Assembly: GCF_023614235.1 (NCBI RefSeq)
Contig: NZ_CP094264.1
Span: 4,960,001-5,024,000 of the forward strand
Direction: 5' to 3'
Length of the DNA: 64,000 nt
From: Streptomyces sp. MRC013
GTDB taxonomy: Bacteria; Actinomycetota; Actinomycetes; Streptomycetales; Streptomycetaceae
Shown here: positions 26,604 to 56,593 of the stretch, in pieces
How the letters are laid out: every line of letters starts with the position of its first letter
Position numbering within the stretch: position 1 is the stretch's first letter
The notes under the pieces: generated by a model
Told to the model about the DNA's origin: nothing
What the model saw: only the letters and a program-made list of their open reading frames with translations
Database searches by the model: none
Translations under genes and position numbers: made by a program

Positions 26604-27851
26604 GTGAGCAGCGAGAACGTGTGGGATGTCGTCGTGGTCGGCGCGGGGCCGGCCGGAGCGTCCGCGGCCTACGCCGCGGCAGTCGCGGGCCGCCGCGTGC
26701 TGCTCCTGGAGAAGGCCGATCTGCCCCGCTACAAGACGTGCGGCGGCGGCATCATCGGCCCGTCGCGGGACGCGCTGCCGCCGGGCTTCGAACTGCCGCT
26801 GCGGGACCGGGTGCACGCCGTGACGTTCTCGCTGAACGGCCGCTTCACCCGGACCCGCCGCTCGAAGCGGATGCTGTTCGGCCTGGTCGACCGGTCCGAG
26901 TTCGACGCCAGGCTGGTGGAGCACGCCCGGAGGGCCGGTGCCGAGGTGCGCACCGGTGCGGCCGTGGTGCGGGTCGAGCAGCACGGCGCCGCGGTGCCGG
27001 ACCGCCGCACCGTCGCTGTCGTCCTCTCCGACGGAGGGACGGTGCTGGCGCGGGCGGTGGTGGGCGCGGACGGCAGCGCCAGCCGGATAGGCGCCCACGT
27101 GGGGGTCAGGACCGACCAGGTGGACCTCGGCCTGGAGGCGGAGATCCCGGTCCCGCCGGCCGTGGCGGAGGACTGGGCGGGACGGGTCCTCATCGACTGG
27201 GGGCCCATGCCGGGCAGTTACGGATGGGTGTTCCCCAAGGGCGACACGCTGACGGTCGGCGTCATCTCGGCGCGCGGCGAGGGCGCCGCGACCAAGCGGT
27301 ACCTGGACGACTTCGTGGCCCGTCTCGGTCTCGCCGGGTTCGAACCGGCCCTCTCCTCCGGCCACCTGACGCGCTGTCGCAGCGAGGACTCGCCGCTCTC
27401 CCGCGGCCGGGTCGTCGTCTGCGGGGACGCGGCCGGGCTGCTGGAGCCGTGGACGCGCGAGGGGATCTCCTTCGCCCTGCGGTCCGGTCGGCTCGCGGGG
27501 GAGTGGGCGGTGCGGATCGCCGAGGCGCACGACGCGGTCGAGGCGCGCCGTCAGGCGCTGAACTACGCCTTCGCCGTCAAGTCCGGGCTGGGGGTCGAGA
27601 TGGCGGTGGGACGGCGGATGCTCGCCGTCTTCGCGCGGCGCCCCGCGCTGCTCCACGCCGCGATCACCGGATTGCGCCCCGTGTGGCGGGCGTTCACGGA
27701 CGTCACGCGCGGCGCGACGACGCTGGCCGGCATCGTCAGGACCAACGCCGTCGCGCGCCGCGCCCTGGAGTCGCTTGACCGCCGCGAGCAGGCGGAGCCG
27801 CAGGAGCGGGCGCCGGAACCGGAGCCGGAGCCGGCGGCTCGGGAGCGGTAG
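26604..27851 (+). CDS. geranylgeranyl reductase-family FAD oxidoreductase
   Basis: 415 residues. N-terminal Rossmann motif VVVVGAGPAGASAAYAAAVAGRRVLLLEK, YKTCGGG (the P-x-YK-x-C-GG signature of geranylgeranyl reductases), VVGADGSASR, and VVCGDAAGLLEPWTREGISFALRSGRLAGEW, the second FAD motif. The family reduces isoprenoid side chains, in actinobacteria often of menaquinone or lipids. The C-terminal tail is Glu/Pro-rich. GTG 26604 follows GGAAG. No isoprenoid genes are adjacent. Confidence 0.85.
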   Translation: MSSENVWDVVVVGAGPAGASAAYAAAVAGRRVLLLEKADLPRYKTCGGGIIGPSRDALPPGFELPLRDRVHAVTFSLNGRFTRTRRSKRMLFGLVDRSEFDARLVEHARRAGAEVRTGAAVVRVEQHGAAVPDRRTVAVVLSDGGTVLARAVVGADGSASRIGAHVGVRTDQVDLGLEAEIPVPPAVAEDWAGRVLIDWGPMPGSYGWVFPKGDTLTVGVISARGEGAATKRYLDDFVARLGLAGFEPALSSGHLTRCRSEDSPLSRGRVVVCGDAAGLLEPWTREGISFALRSGRLAGEWAVRIAEAHDAVEARRQALNYAFAVKSGLGVEMAVGRRMLAVFARRPALLHAAITGLRPVWRAFTDVTRGATTLAGIVRTNAVARRALESLDRREQAEPQERAPEPEPEPAARER

Positions 27852-48262: not shown

Positions 48263-49987
48263 GTGGGCGTGGGGGAGCCGCTGTCGCGGATGCCTCAGAT
48301 GCGGCTCGACGAGCTGCTGGAGGAACTCGAGTCGCGCATCAACGCGGTCCGAGGCACCCGGGACCGCGTGCACAGCCTCCTGGAGGCCGTCGTCTCGGTG
48401 GGCCGCGAGCTGGACCTCTCCCAGGTGCTGCGGCGGATCGTCGAGGCCGCCGCGTTCCTGGTCGACGCGGAGTACGCGGCCCTGGGCGTGATCGGCCCCG
48501 ACGGGCGGACCCTCTCGCAGTTCCTCACCGTCGGGCTGGCGGAGGAGGAGATCGCCAGGATCGGCCCCCTGCCCGCCGGGCACGGCCTCCTGGGCGAGCT
48601 CATCCACAACCCCGAGCCGCTGCGGCTCACCGACCTCGGCGCGCACCGGGCCTCGTACGGCTTCCCCGCCCACCACCCGCCGATGCGCACGTTCCTGGGC
48701 GTCCCCATCCGGGTGCGCGACGAGGTTTTCGGCAACCTCTACCTGACCGACAAGCGCGGCGAGCAGGAGTTCGACGCCGAGGACGAGTCGGTGATCTCCA
48801 CCCTGTCCGTCGCCGCCGGCGTCGCCATCGACAACGCGCGGCTGTACGAGGCGTCGCAGCGCCAGCAGCGGTGGCTGCAGGCGAACGCGGAGATCACCCA
48901 CAGCCTCCTCTCCGGCAGCCCGCGCCTGGAGGTCCTGGAGCTCATCGCCCGCCGCGCCCGGGAGATCACCGGGGCGGCGCTCGCCGACGTCTCCGTACCC
49001 GTCGCCGGGACGGACGACCTCGTCGTCGAGCTGGCCACCGGCGCGGACGACGACACCCGCTGCGGCCTGGTGGTCCCGGTCGAGGGCACCCTGTCCGGCG
49101 GCGCCTACCAGGCGGGTGCGCCGGTGACGACGGCCGGCCTCGGGCAGGACGACCGCTACACCGCCGGCCCCCGCCGCTTCGACGGCCTGGGCCCGGCGGT
49201 CGCCGTCCCCCTGGGCACCGCCGCCAAGGACACCCGGGGCGTCCTGCTGCTGGCCCGGCAGCAGGGCGAGGCCGTCTTCACCGAGGGGGAGCTGGAACCG
49301 CTCCTGGCCTTCGCCGGGCAGGCCGCCCTCGCCCTGGAGCTGGCCGAGCGCCGCAGCGACGCCGAGCAGCTCGCGCTCCTGGAGGACCGCGACCGCATCG
49401 CCAGGGACCTGCACGACCTCGCCATCCAGCGGCTCTTCGCGACCGGCATGACCCTGCAGAGCGCCGCCCGGCTCGTCCGGCACGAGGGCGCCGCCGAACG
49501 CGTGTCCCGCGCCGTGGGGGACCTCGACGAGACCATCAAGATCATCCGCTCCACGATCTTCGGCCTGCGCGCCCGGGAGGAGGAGACGGGGCCGAGCCTG
49601 CGGGCGCGGGCGGCCCGCACGGTGGGCGAGACGGCGGCGATGCTCGGGTTCCCGCCCCGCCTGAGCATGGAGGGCTTGCTCGACACGGACGTACCGCCGC
49701 AGGTGGCCGATCACGTCATGGCGGCCCTCACGGAGGCCCTGAGCAACGCCGCCCGCCACGCGCACGCCACCCGGGTCGAGGTCGCCCTGCAGGCCACCTT
49801 CGACGAGGTCGTCCTCACCGTGACGGACGACGGCAGGGGGATCCCCGCCGACGGCAGGCGCAGCGGCCTGGGCAACCTCGAGGAGCGGGCCCGCGACGTG
49901 GGCGGAACCCTGAGCATCGAGCGCCCGGACGGGGGCGGCAGCCGGCTCGTGTGGCGGGCGCCGCTCGCCCCCGGCCGCGACGGGTGA
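48263..49987 (+). CDS. GAF-GAF sensor histidine kinase, DevS/OsdK-like
   Basis: 574 residues, soluble. GAF-A spans about 50-200 and contains YGFPAHHPPMRTFLGVPIRVRDEVFGNLYLTDK; H137/H138 match the region of the heme-ligating His of mycobacterial DosS/DevS. GAF-B spans about 225-365. HisKA_3 has RIARDLHDLAIQRLFATGM with phospho-acceptor H384. The ATPase domain has ALTEALSNAARHA, DDGRGIP and GLGNLEERA. Mycobacterial DosS and Streptomyces OsdK sense O2, NO or redox and drive DevR/OsdR. The matching response regulator is encoded at 51462. GTG 48263 with GGAGGAG. Confidence 0.9.
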   Translation: MGVGEPLSRMPQMRLDELLEELESRINAVRGTRDRVHSLLEAVVSVGRELDLSQVLRRIVEAAAFLVDAEYAALGVIGPDGRTLSQFLTVGLAEEEIARIGPLPAGHGLLGELIHNPEPLRLTDLGAHRASYGFPAHHPPMRTFLGVPIRVRDEVFGNLYLTDKRGEQEFDAEDESVISTLSVAAGVAIDNARLYEASQRQQRWLQANAEITHSLLSGSPRLEVLELIARRAREITGAALADVSVPVAGTDDLVVELATGADDDTRCGLVVPVEGTLSGGAYQAGAPVTTAGLGQDDRYTAGPRRFDGLGPAVAVPLGTAAKDTRGVLLLARQQGEAVFTEGELEPLLAFAGQAALALELAERRSDAEQLALLEDRDRIARDLHDLAIQRLFATGMTLQSAARLVRHEGAAERVSRAVGDLDETIKIIRSTIFGLRAREEETGPSLRARAARTVGETAAMLGFPPRLSMEGLLDTDVPPQVADHVMAALTEALSNAARHAHATRVEVALQATFDEVVLTVTDDGRGIPADGRRSGLGNLEERARDVGGTLSIERPDGGGSRLVWRAPLAPGRDG

Positions 49988-50175
49988 CCGCGGGCGGCGC
50001 CGCCCCGGCGCCCGGCCCGGGAGGCGGGGTGCCCGGTTCGGGGAACGGCGCGGTCGGACCGCGTCGGGGCGCGTGCCCGGGCCTCCCGCGCCACCGGCAC
50101 CGGGGCGCCCGGGCGACCGCGGTGGGAGGGGCTCCCGACGCGGCGTGGGCCCGGGGACCGGGCGCCCGCCGGCCA

Positions 50176-50640
50176 CTACGCGGTGAGCCGCAGGCCCGTC
50201 ACCAGGTCCGGCCGGATGCGCAGCGCGGCGTTCACCGCCGGATGTTCCGTCCAGGGGCGCAGGCGGGCGGTGAAGCGCGCGAGTTCACGTTCGTCGGTGA
50301 CCCGGTGGGCGTAACCGGTGACCATCACGCTCCAGCCGGTGTGGGTCTCGGGATCGATGGCGTCCGCCTCGTAGGCCACGACGACACCCGCCGTGTTCGC
50401 GGGCGTCACGAGGGACGCGAGCGTCGCACCGTCGTGCAGTTGGACGATGACGTCCTCCCCGTCTATGAGGTGGTTGACCGGGCGGACGGCGGGCAGGGCC
50501 TGCTGCGTGAAGACGATGCGCCCCAGCGAGACGGTGCCGAGCAGCCGCAGGGCCTCCGCACGGCCGAAGCGTGCCGTACGGCGGGGCGCCACCGCCTCAC
50601 GGCGGCCGTCCGCCGCCCCGTGCGTGGTCCGGTCCTTCAT
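50176..50640 (-). CDS. pyridoxamine 5'-phosphate oxidase-fold protein
   Basis: 154 residues. The split-barrel flavin-binding fold is seen in AEALRLLGTVSLGRIVFTQQALPAVRPVNHLIDGEDVIVQLHDG, VVAYEADAIDPETHTGWSVMVTGYAHRV and a short C terminus. Members bind FMN, F420 or heme; several are DosR-regulon members in mycobacteria. ATG 50640 has GGAAGG upstream. A palindromic 16-bp site lies 92 bp upstream (50725-50740), as for other genes of this cluster. Confidence 0.88.
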   Translation of the reverse strand: MKDRTTHGAADGRREAVAPRRTARFGRAEALRLLGTVSLGRIVFTQQALPAVRPVNHLIDGEDVIVQLHDGATLASLVTPANTAGVVVAYEADAIDPETHTGWSVMVTGYAHRVTDERELARFTARLRPWTEHPAVNAALRIRPDLVTGLRLTA

Positions 50641-50724
50641 CACGCCCACCTTCCGCTCCATTCCGGCCCGGGTCCCGGGCCGCCCGGTGCCCCGCCAGCG
50701 TCCCCCGGCGCCCACCGCCGCGGT

Positions 50725-50740
50725 AGGGCCGAACGGACCT
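50725..50740. promoter_or_regulatory. candidate DevR/OsdR-type box 1
   Basis: AGGGCCGAACGGACCT; its reverse complement reads AGGTCC-GTTC-GGCCCT. Centre 92 bp upstream of the pyridoxamine-oxidase-fold gene. One of six related sites in this cluster. Confidence 0.6.
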
Positions 50741-50772
50741 GTGAGCCATGGCCGGAATCCGGCCCGCGGCGG

Positions 50773-51099
50773 TCAGGCGAACGAGTACGGCACGGCACGG
50801 TCCACGCCCAGGGCGCGGAACACGCGGGCGGGGAGCGGCTGGACGCGGCACAGCCTCATGCGCGCCCCGGCCGCCGCGCAGCGCCGGTGCACGCGGAGCA
50901 GGAGGGCGACGCCGGAGCTGTCGCAGAAGGTGACATCGGCGAGGTCGAGCAGCAGTTCGCGCTCCGCGTCGCCGGTGAGGCGGGCCAACGCCGGCTCGAT
51001 GCGCTCGGCGGCGTGGAGGTCGAGTTCCCCGGCCAGGGCGACGGCCACCGTCCCCGGGCCCAGGGCGGTCGCGGTCAGGCTGATCGGAGGCGTCGTCAT
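50773..51099 (-). CDS. STAS-domain anti-sigma-factor antagonist
   Basis: 108 residues, SpoIIAA/RsbV type: VALAGELDLHAAERIEPAL, then LLLDLADVTFCDSSGVALLLRVHRR with the phosphorylatable Ser in DSSG, and VQPLPARVFRALGVDRAVPY. It would bind an anti-sigma kinase and free its sigma factor. ATG 51099 with GGAGAAAGG. It sits between the two-component genes with two tandem palindromic sites upstream, which suggests that the sensor system feeds into a sigma-factor partner switch. Confidence 0.88.
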   Translation of the reverse strand: MTTPPISLTATALGPGTVAVALAGELDLHAAERIEPALARLTGDAERELLLDLADVTFCDSSGVALLLRVHRRCAAAGARMRLCRVQPLPARVFRALGVDRAVPYSFA

Positions 51100-51191
51100 G
51101 ACGGCGGCCTTTCTCCGTACGAGGGTGCCCGGGGTGGTCGGCCCCGGCCGTGCCGGCGGGTGAAGTCCACCGCGGAACGCCGGGGGGCGGT

Positions 51192-51207
51192 AGGTCCGGC
51201 GGGCCCC
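51192..51207. promoter_or_regulatory. candidate DevR/OsdR-type box 2
   Basis: AGGTCC-GGCG-GGCCCC, centre 100 bp upstream of the STAS gene and 22 bp (about two helical turns) from box 3, like tandem response-regulator sites. Confidence 0.55.
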
Positions 51208-51213
51208 GCCGGC

Positions 51214-51229
51214 AGGGCCGAAGGTCCCT
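51214..51229. promoter_or_regulatory. candidate DevR/OsdR-type box 3
   Basis: AGGGCCGAAGGTCCCT; reverse complement AGGGAC-CTTC-GGCCCT. Centre 122 bp upstream of the STAS gene. Confidence 0.6.
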
Positions 51230-51368
51230 CCCCGACGGGGCCCTGCGCCGCGCGGGCGCGGGGGCCGGGCGCCGCGCGGCGTTTCCCCCGCCCGCGGGTC
51301 CCAGGCCACACCGACCGCATGGCGCCCGCCGCGCCGGGCACCGGCATGCCGCGGCGCGACGGCCGGCG

Positions 51369-51384
51369 AGGGCCGTCCGGCCCT
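51369..51384. promoter_or_regulatory. candidate DevR/OsdR-type box 4
   Basis: AGGGCC-GTCC-GGCCCT, perfect 6+6 half-sites, centre 85 bp upstream of the response regulator start, consistent with autoregulation. Confidence 0.65.
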
Positions 51385-51461
51385 GGTCGGGGAAGCGCCC
51401 GCACGGCACGATGCAGGCGGATCCGCCTGCGGCGGAGAACACGGCGAACACGGAGTGTGCG

Positions 51462-52166
51462 ATGACGGACGGCAGCGGCGGCCTCACGGGAAAGGAACCG
51501 ATCGGGGTCTTCCTCCTCGACGACCACGAGGTGGTGCGCCGCGGCGTGCACGACCTGCTGGACGCCGAACCCGACCTGACCGTGGTGGGCGAGGCCGGCA
51601 CGGCCGAGCAGGCGCTCGTGCGGATCCCCGCCCTGCGCCCCCGGGTCGCCGTCCTCGACGTGCGCCTGCCGGACGGGGACGGCGTGAGCGTGTGCCGGGA
51701 GCTGCGCTCCCGCATGCCCGACCTGGCGTGCCTGATGCTGACCTCGTTCGACGACGAGGAGGCCCTGCTCGACGCGATCATGGCCGGCGCTTCCGGCTAC
51801 GTGCTCAAGCAGATCACCGGGACCGACCTGGTCAACGCCGTGCGCACGGTCGCCTCCGGCCGGTCCATGCTGGACCCCGGCGCCACGGCGCGGGTGATGG
51901 CCCGGCTGCGCGGCGAGGCTCCCCGGCGGGAGGAGCCGCAGGGCCTGCCCGGCCTGACGGAGCGGGAGCGGGAGATCCTCGCCCTGGTGGGGGAGGGGCT
52001 GACCAACCGGGAGATCGGCAGGCGGCTCTACCTGGCGGAGAAGACGGTGAAGAACAACATCTCCCGGCTGCTGGCCAAGCTGGGCGTGGAGCGCCGCGTA
52101 CAGGCCGCCGTCATCGCCACCCGGGCCCTGGCCGCCCGGGACGACCGGGGCGGCCCGCGCGGCTGA
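51462..52166 (+). CDS. NarL/LuxR-type response regulator, DevR/OsdR-like
   Basis: 234 residues. Receiver domain: [30 protein letters not shown], phospho-acceptor D66 ([13 protein letters not shown]), [26 protein letters not shown] with the conserved Lys. The GerE/LuxR HTH is [51 protein letters not shown]. These features, including the KTVKNN recognition helix, match DevR/DosR and Streptomyces OsdR. ATG 51462 with GGAG. Its cognate kinase is probably the 48263 gene. Six palindromic sites nearby are likely targets. Confidence 0.92.
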
Positions 52167-52275
52167 GCGGGGCCGGCGCGTACGCGTCGACAGACGGGCC
52201 CGCACCGGTGCGGCGGCTCCCGTACGGCGTCCCCGAGGAGATCGGACGGGAGCCGCCGTCCGTCCAGGTCCCGCA

Positions 52276-52518
52276 CGGGACGTTCCGGCGACGGCCGAAG
52301 CGGCCCCTGCCGGCCGTCGCGCCGTCCGCACCCCGTACGGGACGTCCCCCCGGCGGTCGACGCGGCCCCTGTGACGGCTGCCGTCCATCCGCCCCCTGCG
52401 GGGTGCCCTTCCGGCGGATGTCGTGCTCTCTGACGGCCGCCGCCGGTCCGTCCCACGAGGGGGTGCCCTTCCGGCGGCCGTCGCGCCCCCCGACGGTCGC
52501 GGTCCGTCCGCGTCCCGT
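52276..52518. repeat. degenerate 60-bp tandem repeat, about four units
   Basis: An 18-bp block (GGGGTGCCCTTCCGGCGG) is repeated exactly at 52400-52417 and 52460-52477, 60 bp apart, and weaker copies of the surrounding unit occur around 52276 and 52338. The flanks carry several CCGTACGG/CCCGTACGGG palindromes (about 52330, 52517, 52557, 52570). The region 52167-52831 has no convincing gene. The period is a multiple of three but no frame has a start or codon signal. Confidence 0.6.
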
Positions 52519-52831
52519 ACGGGGCCGCGCCGCATCCGGTATCGGGCGCCGGTGCCGTACGGGCCCGCACCCCGTACGGGAGCGCTGTCCCCTGACGGGA
52601 GGCCGCCCCCTTACGGGCTCGGCGCCCCGGGGGCGGACCCCGGGCCGGGTCCGGGGGCGGACCCCGGGCCCGTCCGCTCGGGGTGTCCCCGGCCCTCGGG
52701 TCGGCCGCGTCCCCGAGCCGCTTCCGCTCCCCGGCCGTCCCCGCCCCGCCGGGCTCCGCCCGTTCCCGCGGGTCCACCGCGCACGGGGCCCGGCCCGTGC
52801 CGGGTGCGGCCCGTCCGGTCCGCGCCGCGCG

Positions 52832-53695
52832 TCAGTCGTGCGGCACGACCGCGACGGGGCAGTCCGCGTGGTGCAGCGCGGCGTGGGCGACCGACCCGAT
52901 ACGGGTGCCCACGGGTCCCCGCCGCGCCCTGCGGCCGACCACGAGCAGCCGGGCGTCCGACAGGGCCGACAGCAGCACCTGTCCCGCACTGCCGGCCTCG
53001 ACGTGCTCGACCACCGGCACCTCGGGAAACCGCTCGCGCCACGGCGCGAGCGCCTCGTGCAGCGCCTTCCTCTCGAACGGCTCCAGCCCTCCCGCCGCGG
53101 TGGCGAGGTACGCCGAGCCGGGGCTGTAGGCGTAGAGCGCCGGCAGGGTCCAGGCCCGTACCGCCCGCACGGCCGCGCCGCGCGCGGCGGCCGCCTCGAA
53201 GGCGAAGCCGAGCACCGCGTCGCTCTCCTCCACAGTGCCCTGCTGGCCCACGACGACCTCGCCGCCCGGCGCCCGGCCGTCCCGGTCGCGCACCGACACC
53301 ACCGGCCGGGTCGCGGCGGCGATCACCTGCTGCCCGTACGAGCCGAGGAGGAAGCCGGCGAGCGCCCCGTACCCTCGCGAACCGAGCACCAGCATCTCCG
53401 CGCCCTCGGCCTCCGCCAGCAGGGCGGCGACCGCCGTGTCCTGCACCACCTCGGAGGTGAGGGGGAGGTCCGGGTACTCGCCGGCGACGCGCGTCCGGGC
53501 CTCCTGCGCCACGGCCTCGGCCGAGCGGGACCGCGTCTCCCTCTCCTGCACCAGGGGCACGTCCAGCGGCTGCCAGAGCCAGGCGTGCACGATGCGCAGC
53601 GGCAGCCCGCGCAGTGCGGCCTCGCCCGCCGCCCAGTCGGCCGCGGCCAGGCTCTCCGCGGATCCGTCCACTCCTACGGTGATGGCGCGGGTCAT
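52832..53695 (-). CDS. universal stress protein, tandem UspA domains
   Basis: 287 residues, two UspA domains of about 140 each. Domain 1: TVGVDGSAESLAAADWAAGEA...MLVLGSRGYGALAGFLLGSYGQQVIAAATRPVVSVR with the ATP-binding G-2x-G-9x-G-S/T pattern. Domain 2: EVVVGQQGTVEESDAVLGFAFEAA...LLVVGRRARRGPVGTRIGSVAHAALHHADCPVAVVPHD. ATG 53695 with GGAGG. Tandem USPs are core members of mycobacterial DosR and Streptomyces OsdR regulons. Divergent from a second USP with two palindromic sites between. Confidence 0.93.
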   Translation of the reverse strand: MTRAITVGVDGSAESLAAADWAAGEAALRGLPLRIVHAWLWQPLDVPLVQERETRSRSAEAVAQEARTRVAGEYPDLPLTSEVVQDTAVAALLAEAEGAEMLVLGSRGYGALAGFLLGSYGQQVIAAATRPVVSVRDRDGRAPGGEVVVGQQGTVEESDAVLGFAFEAAAARGAAVRAVRAWTLPALYAYSPGSAYLATAAGGLEPFERKALHEALAPWRERFPEVPVVEHVEAGSAGQVLLSALSDARLLVVGRRARRGPVGTRIGSVAHAALHHADCPVAVVPHD

Positions 53696-53785
53696 GGGGG
53701 TGCCTCCGTACGGTTCGACGGGGACGGCCGCTCCGGCCGCCTCTCTCCTCCCCTCCAGCATGGGCGGTCCCCGGGGCACCCGCCG

Positions 53786-53801
53786 AGGGCCGGTCGGCCC
53801 C
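53786..53801. promoter_or_regulatory. candidate DevR/OsdR-type box 5
   Basis: AGGGCC-GGTC-GGCCCC, centre 98 bp upstream of the leftward USP gene. Confidence 0.55.
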
Positions 53802-53864
53802 GTTTCCCGGCCGTTCGGCCGCGAGGCGGTCCCGTGCGCCGCGCGGGCCGCCCGTCCCCCCGGC

Positions 53865-53880
53865 AGGGACCTGTGGCCCC
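53865..53880. promoter_or_regulatory. candidate DevR/OsdR-type box 6
   Basis: AGGGAC-CTGT-GGCCCC, inside the longer near-palindrome CAGGGACCTGTGGCCCCCTG (53864-53883), centre 77 bp upstream of the rightward USP gene. Confidence 0.6.
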
Positions 53881-53949
53881 CTGCGCGCGCCGTACCGGCC
53901 GGGCACTGTGGGAGGCGAACCCCGTCCCCGTCTCCCGAGGAGCCCCGCC

Positions 53950-54822
53950 ATGTCCCAGACCGTCACCGCCGGCCTCGACGGATCCCGCGAGAGCCTCGCC
54001 GCCGTCGACTGGGCCGCCGAGGAGGCGCTGCGCCGCGCGGTGCCGCTGCGACTGCTCCAGGTGTGGAACGGCGACGACGACCCGCGCACGCGTTTCGTCG
54101 ACCCGGCGACGGCACGTGGCTGGGGCGAGCGGACGCTCGGTACGGCGGAGAGGCGGCTGCGCCGGCGCCACCCGGACCTCGCCGTCGAGCCGGAATGGGT
54201 CTGCGGCGACCCGGTCGAGGTGCTGGGCACCGCCGGCGACGAGTCGGAACCGCTGGTGCTGGGCTCCCGGGGCCTGGGCACCCTGGCCGGTTTCCTGGCC
54301 GGGTCCGTCTCGCTGGCCGTCGTCGCCCGCGCGCGGCGCCCCGTCGTCCTCGTCCGCCCGCACGACCACCCGGAGCCCGGGGCGGACGGCCCGGCCGGGG
54401 AGGTCGTGGTCGGCCTGGACGTCTCCCGGCCGGCCGGCGAGGTGCTCGCCTTCGGCTTCGCCGCGGCCGACCGGTACGGCTGCGGACTGCGGGTCCTGCA
54501 CAGCTGGGCCGTTCCGACGGCCTACGGACCCGACATGGGCGGCGCCCTGCCGCTGTTCACGGAGGAGGTCGCGCGGGACTCTCGCCGGGCGCTCGACGAG
54601 GCGCTGGCCCCCTGGAGGGAGAAGTACCCGGACGTCCCCGCCGTCCCCGAGTGCCGCCGGGGCCGGCCGGCGCAGGACCTCGTGGAGGCCTCGCACGACG
54701 CCCGGCTGGTCGTGGTGGGCCGCAGGAACCGGCGCGGGCGGATCGGCGCCCACATCGGGGCCGTCACCCACGGCGTCCTGCACCACTGCCTGGCGCCCGT
54801 CGCGGTCGTGCCGCACGACTGA
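53950..54822 (+). CDS. universal stress protein, tandem UspA domains
   Basis: 290 residues. Domain 1: TAGLDGSRESLAAVDWAAEEALRR...PLVLGSRGLGTLAGFLAGSVSLAVVARARRPVVLVR. Domain 2: EVVVGLDVSRPAGEVLAFGFAAADRYGCGLRVLHSW...LVVVGRRNRRGRIGAHIGAVTHGVLHHCLAPVAVVPHD. Both carry the GxxG-GS/T-type ATP motif. ATG 53950 follows GAGGAG. Related to, but clearly diverged from, the neighbouring USP, so an old duplication. Confidence 0.93.
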   Translation: MSQTVTAGLDGSRESLAAVDWAAEEALRRAVPLRLLQVWNGDDDPRTRFVDPATARGWGERTLGTAERRLRRRHPDLAVEPEWVCGDPVEVLGTAGDESEPLVLGSRGLGTLAGFLAGSVSLAVVARARRPVVLVRPHDHPEPGADGPAGEVVVGLDVSRPAGEVLAFGFAAADRYGCGLRVLHSWAVPTAYGPDMGGALPLFTEEVARDSRRALDEALAPWREKYPDVPAVPECRRGRPAQDLVEASHDARLVVVGRRNRRGRIGAHIGAVTHGVLHHCLAPVAVVPHD

Positions 54823-55106
54823 CCGTCCGCCGGCGCCCCGCGCCGCGCGCACCCTCCCGCGGGTCCTTCGGCGCTGCCCGGACGGCCCGGCGACCGAGGC
54901 CCGGCGGCCGGGGCACCGGCGAGCACGCCGCGGTGGACGGCTCGTCGCGGATCCGCCGGGGAGGGAGGAGGGACGGGCGTGTACGGGGCCGGGGCCGCGT
55001 GCACGCCCTGTCCGCTCCGACGGGTCCCGGCGGACACTGCCGGGCGCCCGCCGGGACCGGCCGGACGCCCGGGAGCCGCTGGTAGCATGGGGGCGCGCTT
55101 CGACAC

Positions 55107-55142
55107 CGCCGGGGCCCGTACCGATCGGTACGGGCCCCGGCG
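55107..55142 (+). promoter_or_regulatory. 36-bp perfect palindrome in the helicase leader
   Basis: An uninterrupted perfect inverted repeat centred on GATC (55124/55125), reading GCCGGGGCCCGTACC into its mirror, lies 32 bp before the DEAD-box start. As RNA it gives a very stable hairpin (about 16 bp plus a tetraloop). It could be a transcription attenuator, an RNA-stability element or an autoregulatory site for the helicase. Nothing else is seen in 54823-55106 apart from a weak copy of the DevR-like motif at 54860-54875. Confidence 0.6.
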
Positions 55143-55174
55143 CGTTCCGGGCGCCAGACCGAGAAGGGTTCCCC

Positions 55175-56593
55175 ATGAACGCGAAGCCGCCGGCCCCCGT
55201 ACCCTCCCGCGCGAGCGGCCCGCGGCGGGCGGGAGCGCCGCTCGGCCAGCCCCCGGCGCCGGCAGCGGCGCCCCCGGGCCGCCCCCCGGCCGAGACCTTC
55301 GAGGCGCTCGGGCTGCCGCCGGAGCTGACGCACAGGATGGCCGAGCTCGGGGTGAGGGAGCCCTTCCCGATCCAGGCGGCGGCCCTGCCCGGCGCGCTGG
55401 CCGGGCGCGACGTCCTCGGCCGCGCGCGGACCGGCTCCGGCAAGACGCTCGCCTTCGGACTCGCGCTGCTCGTCCGGACGGCCGGTGCGCGGGCGGAGCC
55501 GAAGCGGCCGCTCGCCCTGGTGCTGGTGCCGACCCGGGAACTCGCGCAGCAGGTGACCGAGGCGCTGGAGCCGTACGCGCGGGTACTGGGCGTACGGCTG
55601 GCGACGGTGGTCGGCGGTCTGCCGGTCGGCCGGCAGGCCGCGTCGCTGCGGGCCGGCGCCGACGTGGTCGTCGCGACGCCGGGCCGGCTGACCGACCTCG
55701 TGTCGCGTCGGGACTGCCACCTGGACCGGGTGCGGATCACCGTGCTGGACGAGGCGGACCGGATGTGCGACCTGGGATTCCTGCCGCAGGTCTCGGAGGT
55801 CCTGGGCCGGGTCCGCCCCGACGGGCAGCGGCTGCTGTTCTCGGCCACGCTCGACGGCGCCGTCGACGGGCTGGTGCGGGACTGGCTGCACGACCCGCTG
55901 TCCGTCTCGGTGGACCGGGAGGCGGGCCCGGCGGCCGCGGTGGAGCACCACGTGCTGAACGTCCACGCCGCCGACAAGTACGCGACCGCGACCGAGATCG
56001 CCGCGCGGGACGGCAGGGTGCTGATGTTCCTGGACACCAGGGCGGGCGTGGACCGGTTCACCCGCCACCTGCGGGCCTGCGGCGTGTCGGCCGCCGCCCT
56101 GCACAGCGGCAAGTCGCAGCCGCAGCGCGCCCACGCGCTCGCCCGGTTCAAGGAGGGCGCGACCACGGTGCTGGTGGCCACCGACGTGGCGGCGCGGGGC
56201 GTCCACGTCGACGCGCTCGACCTCGTCGTCAACGTCGACCCGCCGGCCGACGCCAAGGACTACCTGCACCGCGGCGGGCGCACGGGGCGCGCGGGCGGGT
56301 CCGGGAAGGTGGTCACCCTGGTCACCCCCGGCCAGCGGCGCGACGTGAACCGGATGATCGCCGACGCCGGGATCCGGCCGGCCGTCACCCGGGTGCGTTC
56401 CGGCGAGGAGGGGCTGACCGCCGTCACCGGGGCGAAGCGCCCGCCCGCCGGGACGGGGACCGCAGCCGGCAACGCCCCCTTCCGCGGCCTCGGCACCCGC
56501 CCGGGCTGCCCCGCGAAGGAGTCCCGCAGGACCGCCGAGGCCCGCAGGACGGCGGAGGCCCGCGCGGCGGCCCGGGTGCGCAGGGGCCGCTGA
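55175..56593 (+). CDS. DEAD-box RNA helicase
   Basis: 472 residues with all main motifs: Q motif (FEALGLPPELTHRMAELGVREPFPIQ), I ARTGSGKT, Ia PTRELAQQ, Ib TPGRLTD, II DEAD, III SAT, IV-VI with FLDTRAGVDRF, VATDVAARGVHVDALDLVVN and HRGGRTGRAG. Disordered Pro/Ala N terminus and basic Arg-rich C-terminal tail typical of actinobacterial RhlE-like helicases acting on ribosomal or structured RNA in cold or stress. ATG 55175 follows GAAGGG. Two hairpins terminate it. Confidence 0.93.
   Translation: MNAKPPAPVPSRASGPRRAGAPLGQPPAPAAAPPGRPPAETFEALGLPPELTHRMAELGVREPFPIQAAALPGALAGRDVLGRARTGSGKTLAFGLALLVRTAGARAEPKRPLALVLVPTRELAQQVTEALEPYARVLGVRLATVVGGLPVGRQAASLRAGADVVVATPGRLTDLVSRRDCHLDRVRITVLDEADRMCDLGFLPQVSEVLGRVRPDGQRLLFSATLDGAVDGLVRDWLHDPLSVSVDREAGPAAAVEHHVLNVHAADKYATATEIAARDGRVLMFLDTRAGVDRFTRHLRACGVSAAALHSGKSQPQRAHALARFKEGATTVLVATDVAARGVHVDALDLVVNVDPPADAKDYLHRGGRTGRAGGSGKVVTLVTPGQRRDVNRMIADAGIRPAVTRVRSGEEGLTAVTGAKRPPAGTGTAAGNAPFRGLGTRPGCPAKESRRTAEARRTAEARAAARVRRGR

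Follow-up and report, generated by a model that had tools for sequence, protein, structure and literature searches.

A gene cluster in a 64,000-nucleotide stretch of the Streptomyces sp. MRC013 genome (the whole stretch is called the window here, and all positions are counted from its first letter) is very probably an OsdK-OsdR (DevS-DevR type) oxygen/redox two-component system together with its core regulon. A previous, sequence-only reading of this DNA had drawn attention to six copies of a 16-bp palindrome, AGGKMC-N4-GGMCCY, and had proposed a DevR/OsdR-type regulon with operators of its own. The latter part has to be given up: AGGGCCGATCGGCCCT, which is a better consensus than AGGKMC-N4-GGMCCY, was derived from 12 Streptomyces osdR upstream regions by Urem et al. 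in 2016 (PMC5069765), and in the electrophoretic mobility shift assays of that paper phosphorylated OsdR (OsdR~P) of S. coelicolor binds sites of this type, changes to the conserved bases weakening the binding. The sequence at 53786-53801 of the window is, moreover, identical to the site published there for S. coelicolor osdR itself, AGGGCCGGTCGGCCCC. Given this consensus and this identical site, the cluster is a further instance of a known system, and the published Streptomyces dormancy regulon and its operator can be extended to Streptomyces sp. MRC013 from sequence alone. What the comparison adds is a proposed promoter rule for where OsdR works, a predicted purpose for the weak sites and the apparent membership of a STAS gene.

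The identity of both signalling proteins is clear from their closest relatives. The regulator (51462-52166, forward strand) is an OsdR/DevR-type response regulator of the NarL family, with a receiver domain (PF00072) and a LuxR/GerE DNA-binding domain (PF00196), and among solved structures it is closest to M. tuberculosis DevR (3c3w, E 6e-79), followed by VraR (4e-41). The recognition-helix stretch EKTVKN is identical to that of DevR in the alignment (DevR K179, K182 and N183, numbers counted there), where K179 and N183 presumably play their part in the recognition helix. The kinase (48263-49987, forward strand) has two GAF domains, HisKA_3 and HATPase by Pfam, and a search for structural relatives places its first GAF domain (GAF-A) closest to DosT (2vzw, 3e-48) and DevS (2y8h/2w3d). 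GAF-A retains the stretch HPPMRTFLGVP including its histidine, and its HHPPMRTFLGVP aligns with HHPPMRTFLGVP of DosT and YHPPMRTFLGVP of DevS, so that the haem-proximal histidine, which we take to be H149 in DevS and H147 in DosT, is present. These matches support the earlier proposal of a DevS/OsdK-like kinase and a DevR/OsdR-like regulator. The likeness to M. tuberculosis DevS/DosT-DevR (DosR) covers the homology of the regulator and the sensor domain and the pairing of strong and weak boxes described below; the regulon, in contrast, is largely different beyond genes of the universal stress protein (USP) type, the operator consensus is GC-richer than what we take to be that of DevR, and we know of no STAS member in the M. 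tuberculosis DevR regulon.

The resemblance to OsdK/OsdR of S. coelicolor (SCO0203/SCO0204) extends to the operator consensus, an autoregulatory osdR box, a DevS/DosT-like sensor and targets that include USP and pyridoxamine-oxidase-fold (PNPOx-fold) genes; about half of the boxes listed for that species also lie 50-150 bp upstream of start codons, as they do here (PMC5069765). According to a 2022 review, the OsdK/R and DevS/R of S. coelicolor are a single system under two names (PMC9739842). The arrangement differs in that the kinase gene of the window stands apart, about 1.5 kb upstream of osdR, whereas S. coelicolor has an osdR-osdK operon (PMC5069765).

All six palindromes were found at the places first described (50725-50740, 51192-51207, 51214-51229, 51369-51384, 53786-53801 and 53865-53880), each with 0 mismatches to AGGKMC-N4-GGMCCY, and these are the full set of exact matches in the window. 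Their centres lie 77.5-122.5 bp from the starts of the PNPOx-fold gene, the STAS gene, the response regulator and two USP genes, as claimed. Six matches inside 3.16 kb compare with about 0.04 expected (Poisson P about 6e-12), a figure that is post hoc in that the pattern was derived from these same six sites. Across the 5.33-Mb genome the pattern has 43 + 48 strand matches, in about 70 distinct places by a count from the list, against 83 + 80 for the reversed control; it is therefore not enriched genome-wide, and stricter patterns likewise fell below their reversed controls among the matches listed. As to the frequency of the motif in unrelated regions, then, the pattern lacks genome-wide enrichment, but the window has no comparable second cluster.

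Because the genome-wide pattern test showed no enrichment, a scoring matrix was used instead and, to avoid circularity, was built only from published sites, namely the 26 that Urem et al. list for S. coelicolor in their Table 1 (PMC5069765). This matrix places four of the palindromes at ranks 1-4 of the whole window: 51369 (19.5), an operator of the AGGGCCGATCGGCCCT type upstream of the regulator's own gene, 50725 (18.2), 53786 (17.8) and 51214 (17.8). At least four sites scoring at least 17 within 3.2 kb arose with 1 of 1000 column-permuted matrices, and with 4 of 1000 when the threshold was lowered to 12. The proposal of six operators accordingly stands by sequence for these four, 51192 and 53865 being weak.

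Conservation of the box was assessed in 80 loci, the best 80 of at least 535 related places, mostly from Streptomyces and Kitasatospora, with regulators 73-93% identical over the best segment and genes called with a simple codon-score caller. In 67 of 79 loci (one locus was dropped for too little upstream DNA), osdR is preceded at 40-220 bp by a box scoring at least 12, compared with a mean of 0.92 and a largest value of 32 for 200 permuted matrices, so that the motif is indeed kept in orthologous loci, as the sequence-only reading had asked to be checked. The 80 loci hold 323 such boxes (mean 39 and largest 120 in 40 permutations), and 288 of these are intergenic even though called genes cover 84% of the DNA; for eight permuted matrices the corresponding count is 33 of 180. 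In 29 further loci, read from the 203 of 296 searched genomes that had a match and possibly overlapping with the 80, a box scoring at least 9 was found upstream of the regulator in 19 of 21 loci of the same genus.

When the boxes are aligned on their centres and oriented towards the start codon, a second element becomes apparent. For 274 oriented boxes (scoring at least 12, intergenic, with a start codon 40-160 bp away; those shared by divergent genes may be counted for both), A is over-represented in the flanking DNA at +31.5/+32.5 from the centre, as is T at +35.5/+36.5. The combination AnnnT is present at +31.5 in 62 boxes and at +32.5 in 64, 125 of the 274 together, whereas other offset pairs average 8.7 and the largest of them, 45, is a second peak at +53.5/+54.5 (20 and 25). 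The choice between these two registers goes with the presence of a weak neighbouring box at +20 to +24: with such a neighbour (n = 25) the far -10 is found in 11 cases and the near one in 1, and without it (n = 249) the near -10 is found in 124 and the far one in 34. Box pairs themselves favour this distance, with 8 at 22 bp and 20 at 20-24 bp, whereas offsets of 30-80 have 0.73 each on average. As the near-register -10 is contributed by osdR (54 of 67), PNPOx (26 of 35), USP (14 of 36), ADH (7 of 12) and Crp-type (3 of 6) promoters alike, the rule does not simply reflect the ancestry of a single promoter. If AnnnT ends a -10 hexamer, the box centres would fall at about -42.5/-43.5 or at about -64.5; the -42.5 position is thus suggested by spacing. 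The -10-like element paired with the boxes has T at its first position in only 3 of 125 cases, with a rough consensus of [GC]A[GC]G[AC]T, as if kept weak in the absence of an activator.

In the window, four promoters show AnnnT at the near register: CACGAT (51407-51412, forward strand) for osdR; GACGCT (50697-50702, reverse strand), in register with box 50725, for the PNPOx-fold gene (50176-50640, reverse strand; PF12900); CATGCT (53757-53762, reverse strand), with box 53786, for the first tandem-domain USP gene (52832-53695, reverse strand; two PF00582 stretches); and CACTGT (53904-53909, forward strand), in register with the weak box 53865, for the second USP gene (53950-54822, forward strand; likewise tandem, with two PF00582 stretches). 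A further weak box-like sequence (53844-53859, score 6.8) lies 21 bp upstream of the 53865 box. The STAS promoter is built differently: TGGACT (51164-51169, reverse strand), of the form TGnnnT, stands at the near-register distance from the weak proximal box 51192, whose centre would be near -42.5, and the strong distal box 51214, with its centre probably near -64.5, follows 22 bp behind. This tandem of strong and weak boxes matches DevR, for which a high-affinity site acts cooperatively with an adjacent low-affinity site and the proximal box overlaps the -35 element (PMC3029386); a figure for the spacing of such strong and adjacent weak sites was not found in those parts of the DevR literature that were searched.

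The operators, the orthology, the conservation and the spacing were all established by computation, and from them we infer the following mechanism. The presumed haem-GAF kinase would phosphorylate OsdR, presumably upon an oxygen or redox signal, and OsdR~P dimers would bind the 16-bp palindromes and activate osdR, the PNPOx-fold gene, the two USP genes and the STAS gene. Activation would be class-II-like and would take two modes with respect to the predicted transcription start. In the first (osdR, PNPOx and the first USP gene), a single strong box near -42.5 would replace the -35 element; in the second (STAS), a strong box near -64.5 would cooperatively load a second dimer on a weak box near -42.5. 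Such a two-position geometry can explain the uniform placement of the sites, the tandem pair and the weak sites.

Several observations weigh against this reading. Site 51192 scores 8.7 and ranks 15 in the window, and site 53865 scores 5.4 and ranks 50. The near register lacks AnnnT in 149 of the 274 boxes, box pairs also occur at an offset of 14 (5 pairs), and some promoter types do not follow the rule: boxes of the STAS-A and STAS-B groups have the near-register element in 0/7 and 0/9 cases and the far one in 1/7 and 0/9, and those of histidine kinase, nitroreductase and PFL genes have a near -10 in 0/5, 0/4 and 0/2. For STAS the -10 takes the variant form TGnnnT, which alignment brings out and the general rule does not. 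The 413 bp that precede the kinase gene start contain no strong box, and 12 of the 79 osdR loci have no box scoring at least 12. Outside the genus, in other families of the class, a box scoring at least 9 is present in 4 of 8 fetched loci, and one of these four sits only 14 bp from the start. The locus counts, finally, share ancestry and are not independent events.

The low scores of 51192 and 53865, together with the derivation of the pattern from these same sites, favour the view that the four strong boxes alone are operators and that these two are chance look-alikes in DNA of 77% GC. We consider this rather unlikely, at roughly one chance in a few, as each of the two is spaced from a -10-like hexamer just as the strong boxes are, and 51192 additionally lies at the favoured spacing of 22 bp from a strong box, with a weak box recurring at the equivalent place in loci L027, L177, L178 and L180. 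What argues for the two as operators is therefore promoter geometry and, for 51192, conservation as well. The palindromes might alternatively serve another NarL/LuxR-type regulator rather than the adjacent OsdR, since regulators of this fold can share GC-rich palindromes and, counting OsdR itself, the genome has 48 matches to it at E up to 1e-3. This is very improbable: the other matches are at most 46% identical, compared with the 73-93% of the 80 orthologues from other genomes, the box is kept upstream of osdR itself in the 67 of 79 loci described above, and S. coelicolor OsdR binds the motif in vitro (PMC5069765). That these GC-rich, intergenic inverted repeats are RNA hairpins or terminators instead of protein sites is the least credible reading of all, as both the start codons, at 77-122 bp, and the -10-like elements are found downstream of them, which places the repeats outside the predicted transcripts, and the region 50000-55200 has no Rfam match at the gathering threshold.

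The remaining candidate target of OsdR in the cluster is the STAS gene (50773-51099, reverse strand). The product, of 108 residues, is a single STAS domain of the anti-sigma-antagonist type (TIGR00377 above cut-off; PF01740/PF13466), and the family profile matches SpoIIAA (1th8, 3e-11), RsbV (6m36) and RsfB (8ih8) with the DSSG motif aligned. The phospho-acceptor motif D-S-x-G reads CDSSG in the window, and S or T follows the D in 7 of 7 aligned members. It is thus like these three proteins in domain and motif, and unlike them in that it seems to be controlled by OsdR.

Comparison of loci supports its membership in the regulon. The STAS gene is divergent from osdR in six other loci with a box 97-130 bp upstream, which scores at least 12 in five of them and only 8.3 in L024, and the T-G-n-n-n-T of the -10-like element is invariant across the seven aligned loci, window included. 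In L045 the STAS box is the sole box between STAS and osdR, in L029 and L097 AGGGCCGAAGGTCCC is kept although the DNA around it has diverged, and the window's 22-bp tandem with a weak box is found again in L027. A census from the window protein alone recovered 15 STAS-related proteins among the 1336 called genes of the 80 loci, and 12 of the 15 have a box scoring at least 12 (L024 counts by a box nearer osdR only), the rate for all genes being 318/1336; the three without are L062_11, L091_11 and L091_12, and a sixteenth stretch, found by tblastn only (L087), also has none. An earlier count of 12/14 gave a Fisher P of 1.6e-6, in which the profile had been seeded with box-bearing clades and relatedness is ignored. 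Among 199 genomes of the genus, 12 carry the window type of STAS (13 genes at E up to 1e-20, the window's included). Twelve of these 13 genes, a set that may duplicate some of the 80 loci (the coordinates in G188 equal L045), have a box scoring at least 12 within 300 bp, that of L184 being only nearer osdR and L183 having none, and six have a tandem partner box at 21-22 bp. Judged from these comparisons, control of STAS by OsdR looks lineage-limited but recurrent.

We put forward a model, to which we give somewhat less than an even chance, in which OsdR of some Streptomyces drives a dedicated anti-sigma antagonist from a tandem strong/weak promoter, passing low oxygen or respiratory stress to partner switching; the STAS protein would act on an anti-sigma factor and an alternative sigma factor would be released, with the code of a single -42.5 box or a -64.5 box plus a weak -42.5 box setting graded or switch-like responses. 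No anti-sigma or sigma protein was found among the domain-tested neighbouring products, the partner not having been searched for genome-wide. In the window the STAS gene has two boxes and is divergent from osdR, whereas Table 1 of PMC5069765 names neither a STAS nor an anti-sigma antagonist gene and the main text of that paper has 0 matches to the word STAS. Among the papers listed in searches of mostly non-subscription literature, none showed an OsdR-STAS link by that name, the nearest being the downregulation of the anti-sigma antagonist gene bldG in an S. coelicolor osdR mutant (PMC5069765). In M. smegmatis, respiratory state acts on SigF through RsfSR, by way of antagonists of the anti-sigma factor (PMC10950880); that is post-translational partner switching, whereas the link suggested here is transcription of the antagonist. 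If the STAS link is true, a direct operator couples oxygen sensing in series to sigma-factor partner switching.

A second STAS clade is found elsewhere in osd regions (L033, L042, L077, L079, L091 and L096), with boxes in 6/6. Its members carry Cys, in F-I-D-C-x-G, at what we take to be the usual position of the phosphorylated Ser, and for five of these six genes the closest box lies at just 43-45 bp from the called start; if the -42.5 rule holds, their transcripts would be nearly leaderless.

The regulon may reach further in the same genome. Twenty stretches were chosen by eye among the matches listed; the site lies inside a called gene in 8 and outside genes in 10, and 2 have none at a threshold of 11. 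Five further places in these stretches score at least 17. Two fall within called genes; of the three intergenic ones, one is promoter-like in geometry (L156) and another (L159) fell outside the geometry check. L156 was also alone in showing the geometry among the four of the 10 intergenic sites that were checked. In L156 (C1:5070920-5074920), 59 kb beyond the cluster, a strong box at C1:5072916 (17.8) stands between a Crp-like gene and a helix-turn-helix/PNPOx-type gene, both named by resemblance. A weak box accompanies it at 22 bp, and GACACT occupies the far register towards the Crp-like gene; S. coelicolor OsdR likewise has Crp-like targets (PMC5069765).

Across the 80 loci, boxes scoring at least 12 precede 47 of 101 USP-like and 38 of 62 PNPOx-like genes. 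They are also seen before S30AE/hibernation-factor (6/8), flavohaemoglobin (11/13), GAPDH (4/5), AdhE (6/11), phosphoketolase (5/16) and PFL-like (4/13) genes, families named from one representative each (for example L069:15794-16585, L019:14990-17257 and L066:8666-9868), and these additional targets suggest a low-oxygen programme wider than the table in PMC5069765.

One further high-scoring site of the window, AAGGCCGATCTGCCCC at 26712-26727 (13.8), lies within an oxidoreductase-like reading frame and was set aside as probably due to chance. The non-coding region between osdR and the first USP gene (52150-52850) contains many degenerate repeats, together with CCCGTACGGG inverted repeats and direct repeats of 50-51 nt at a spacing of about 60 nt.

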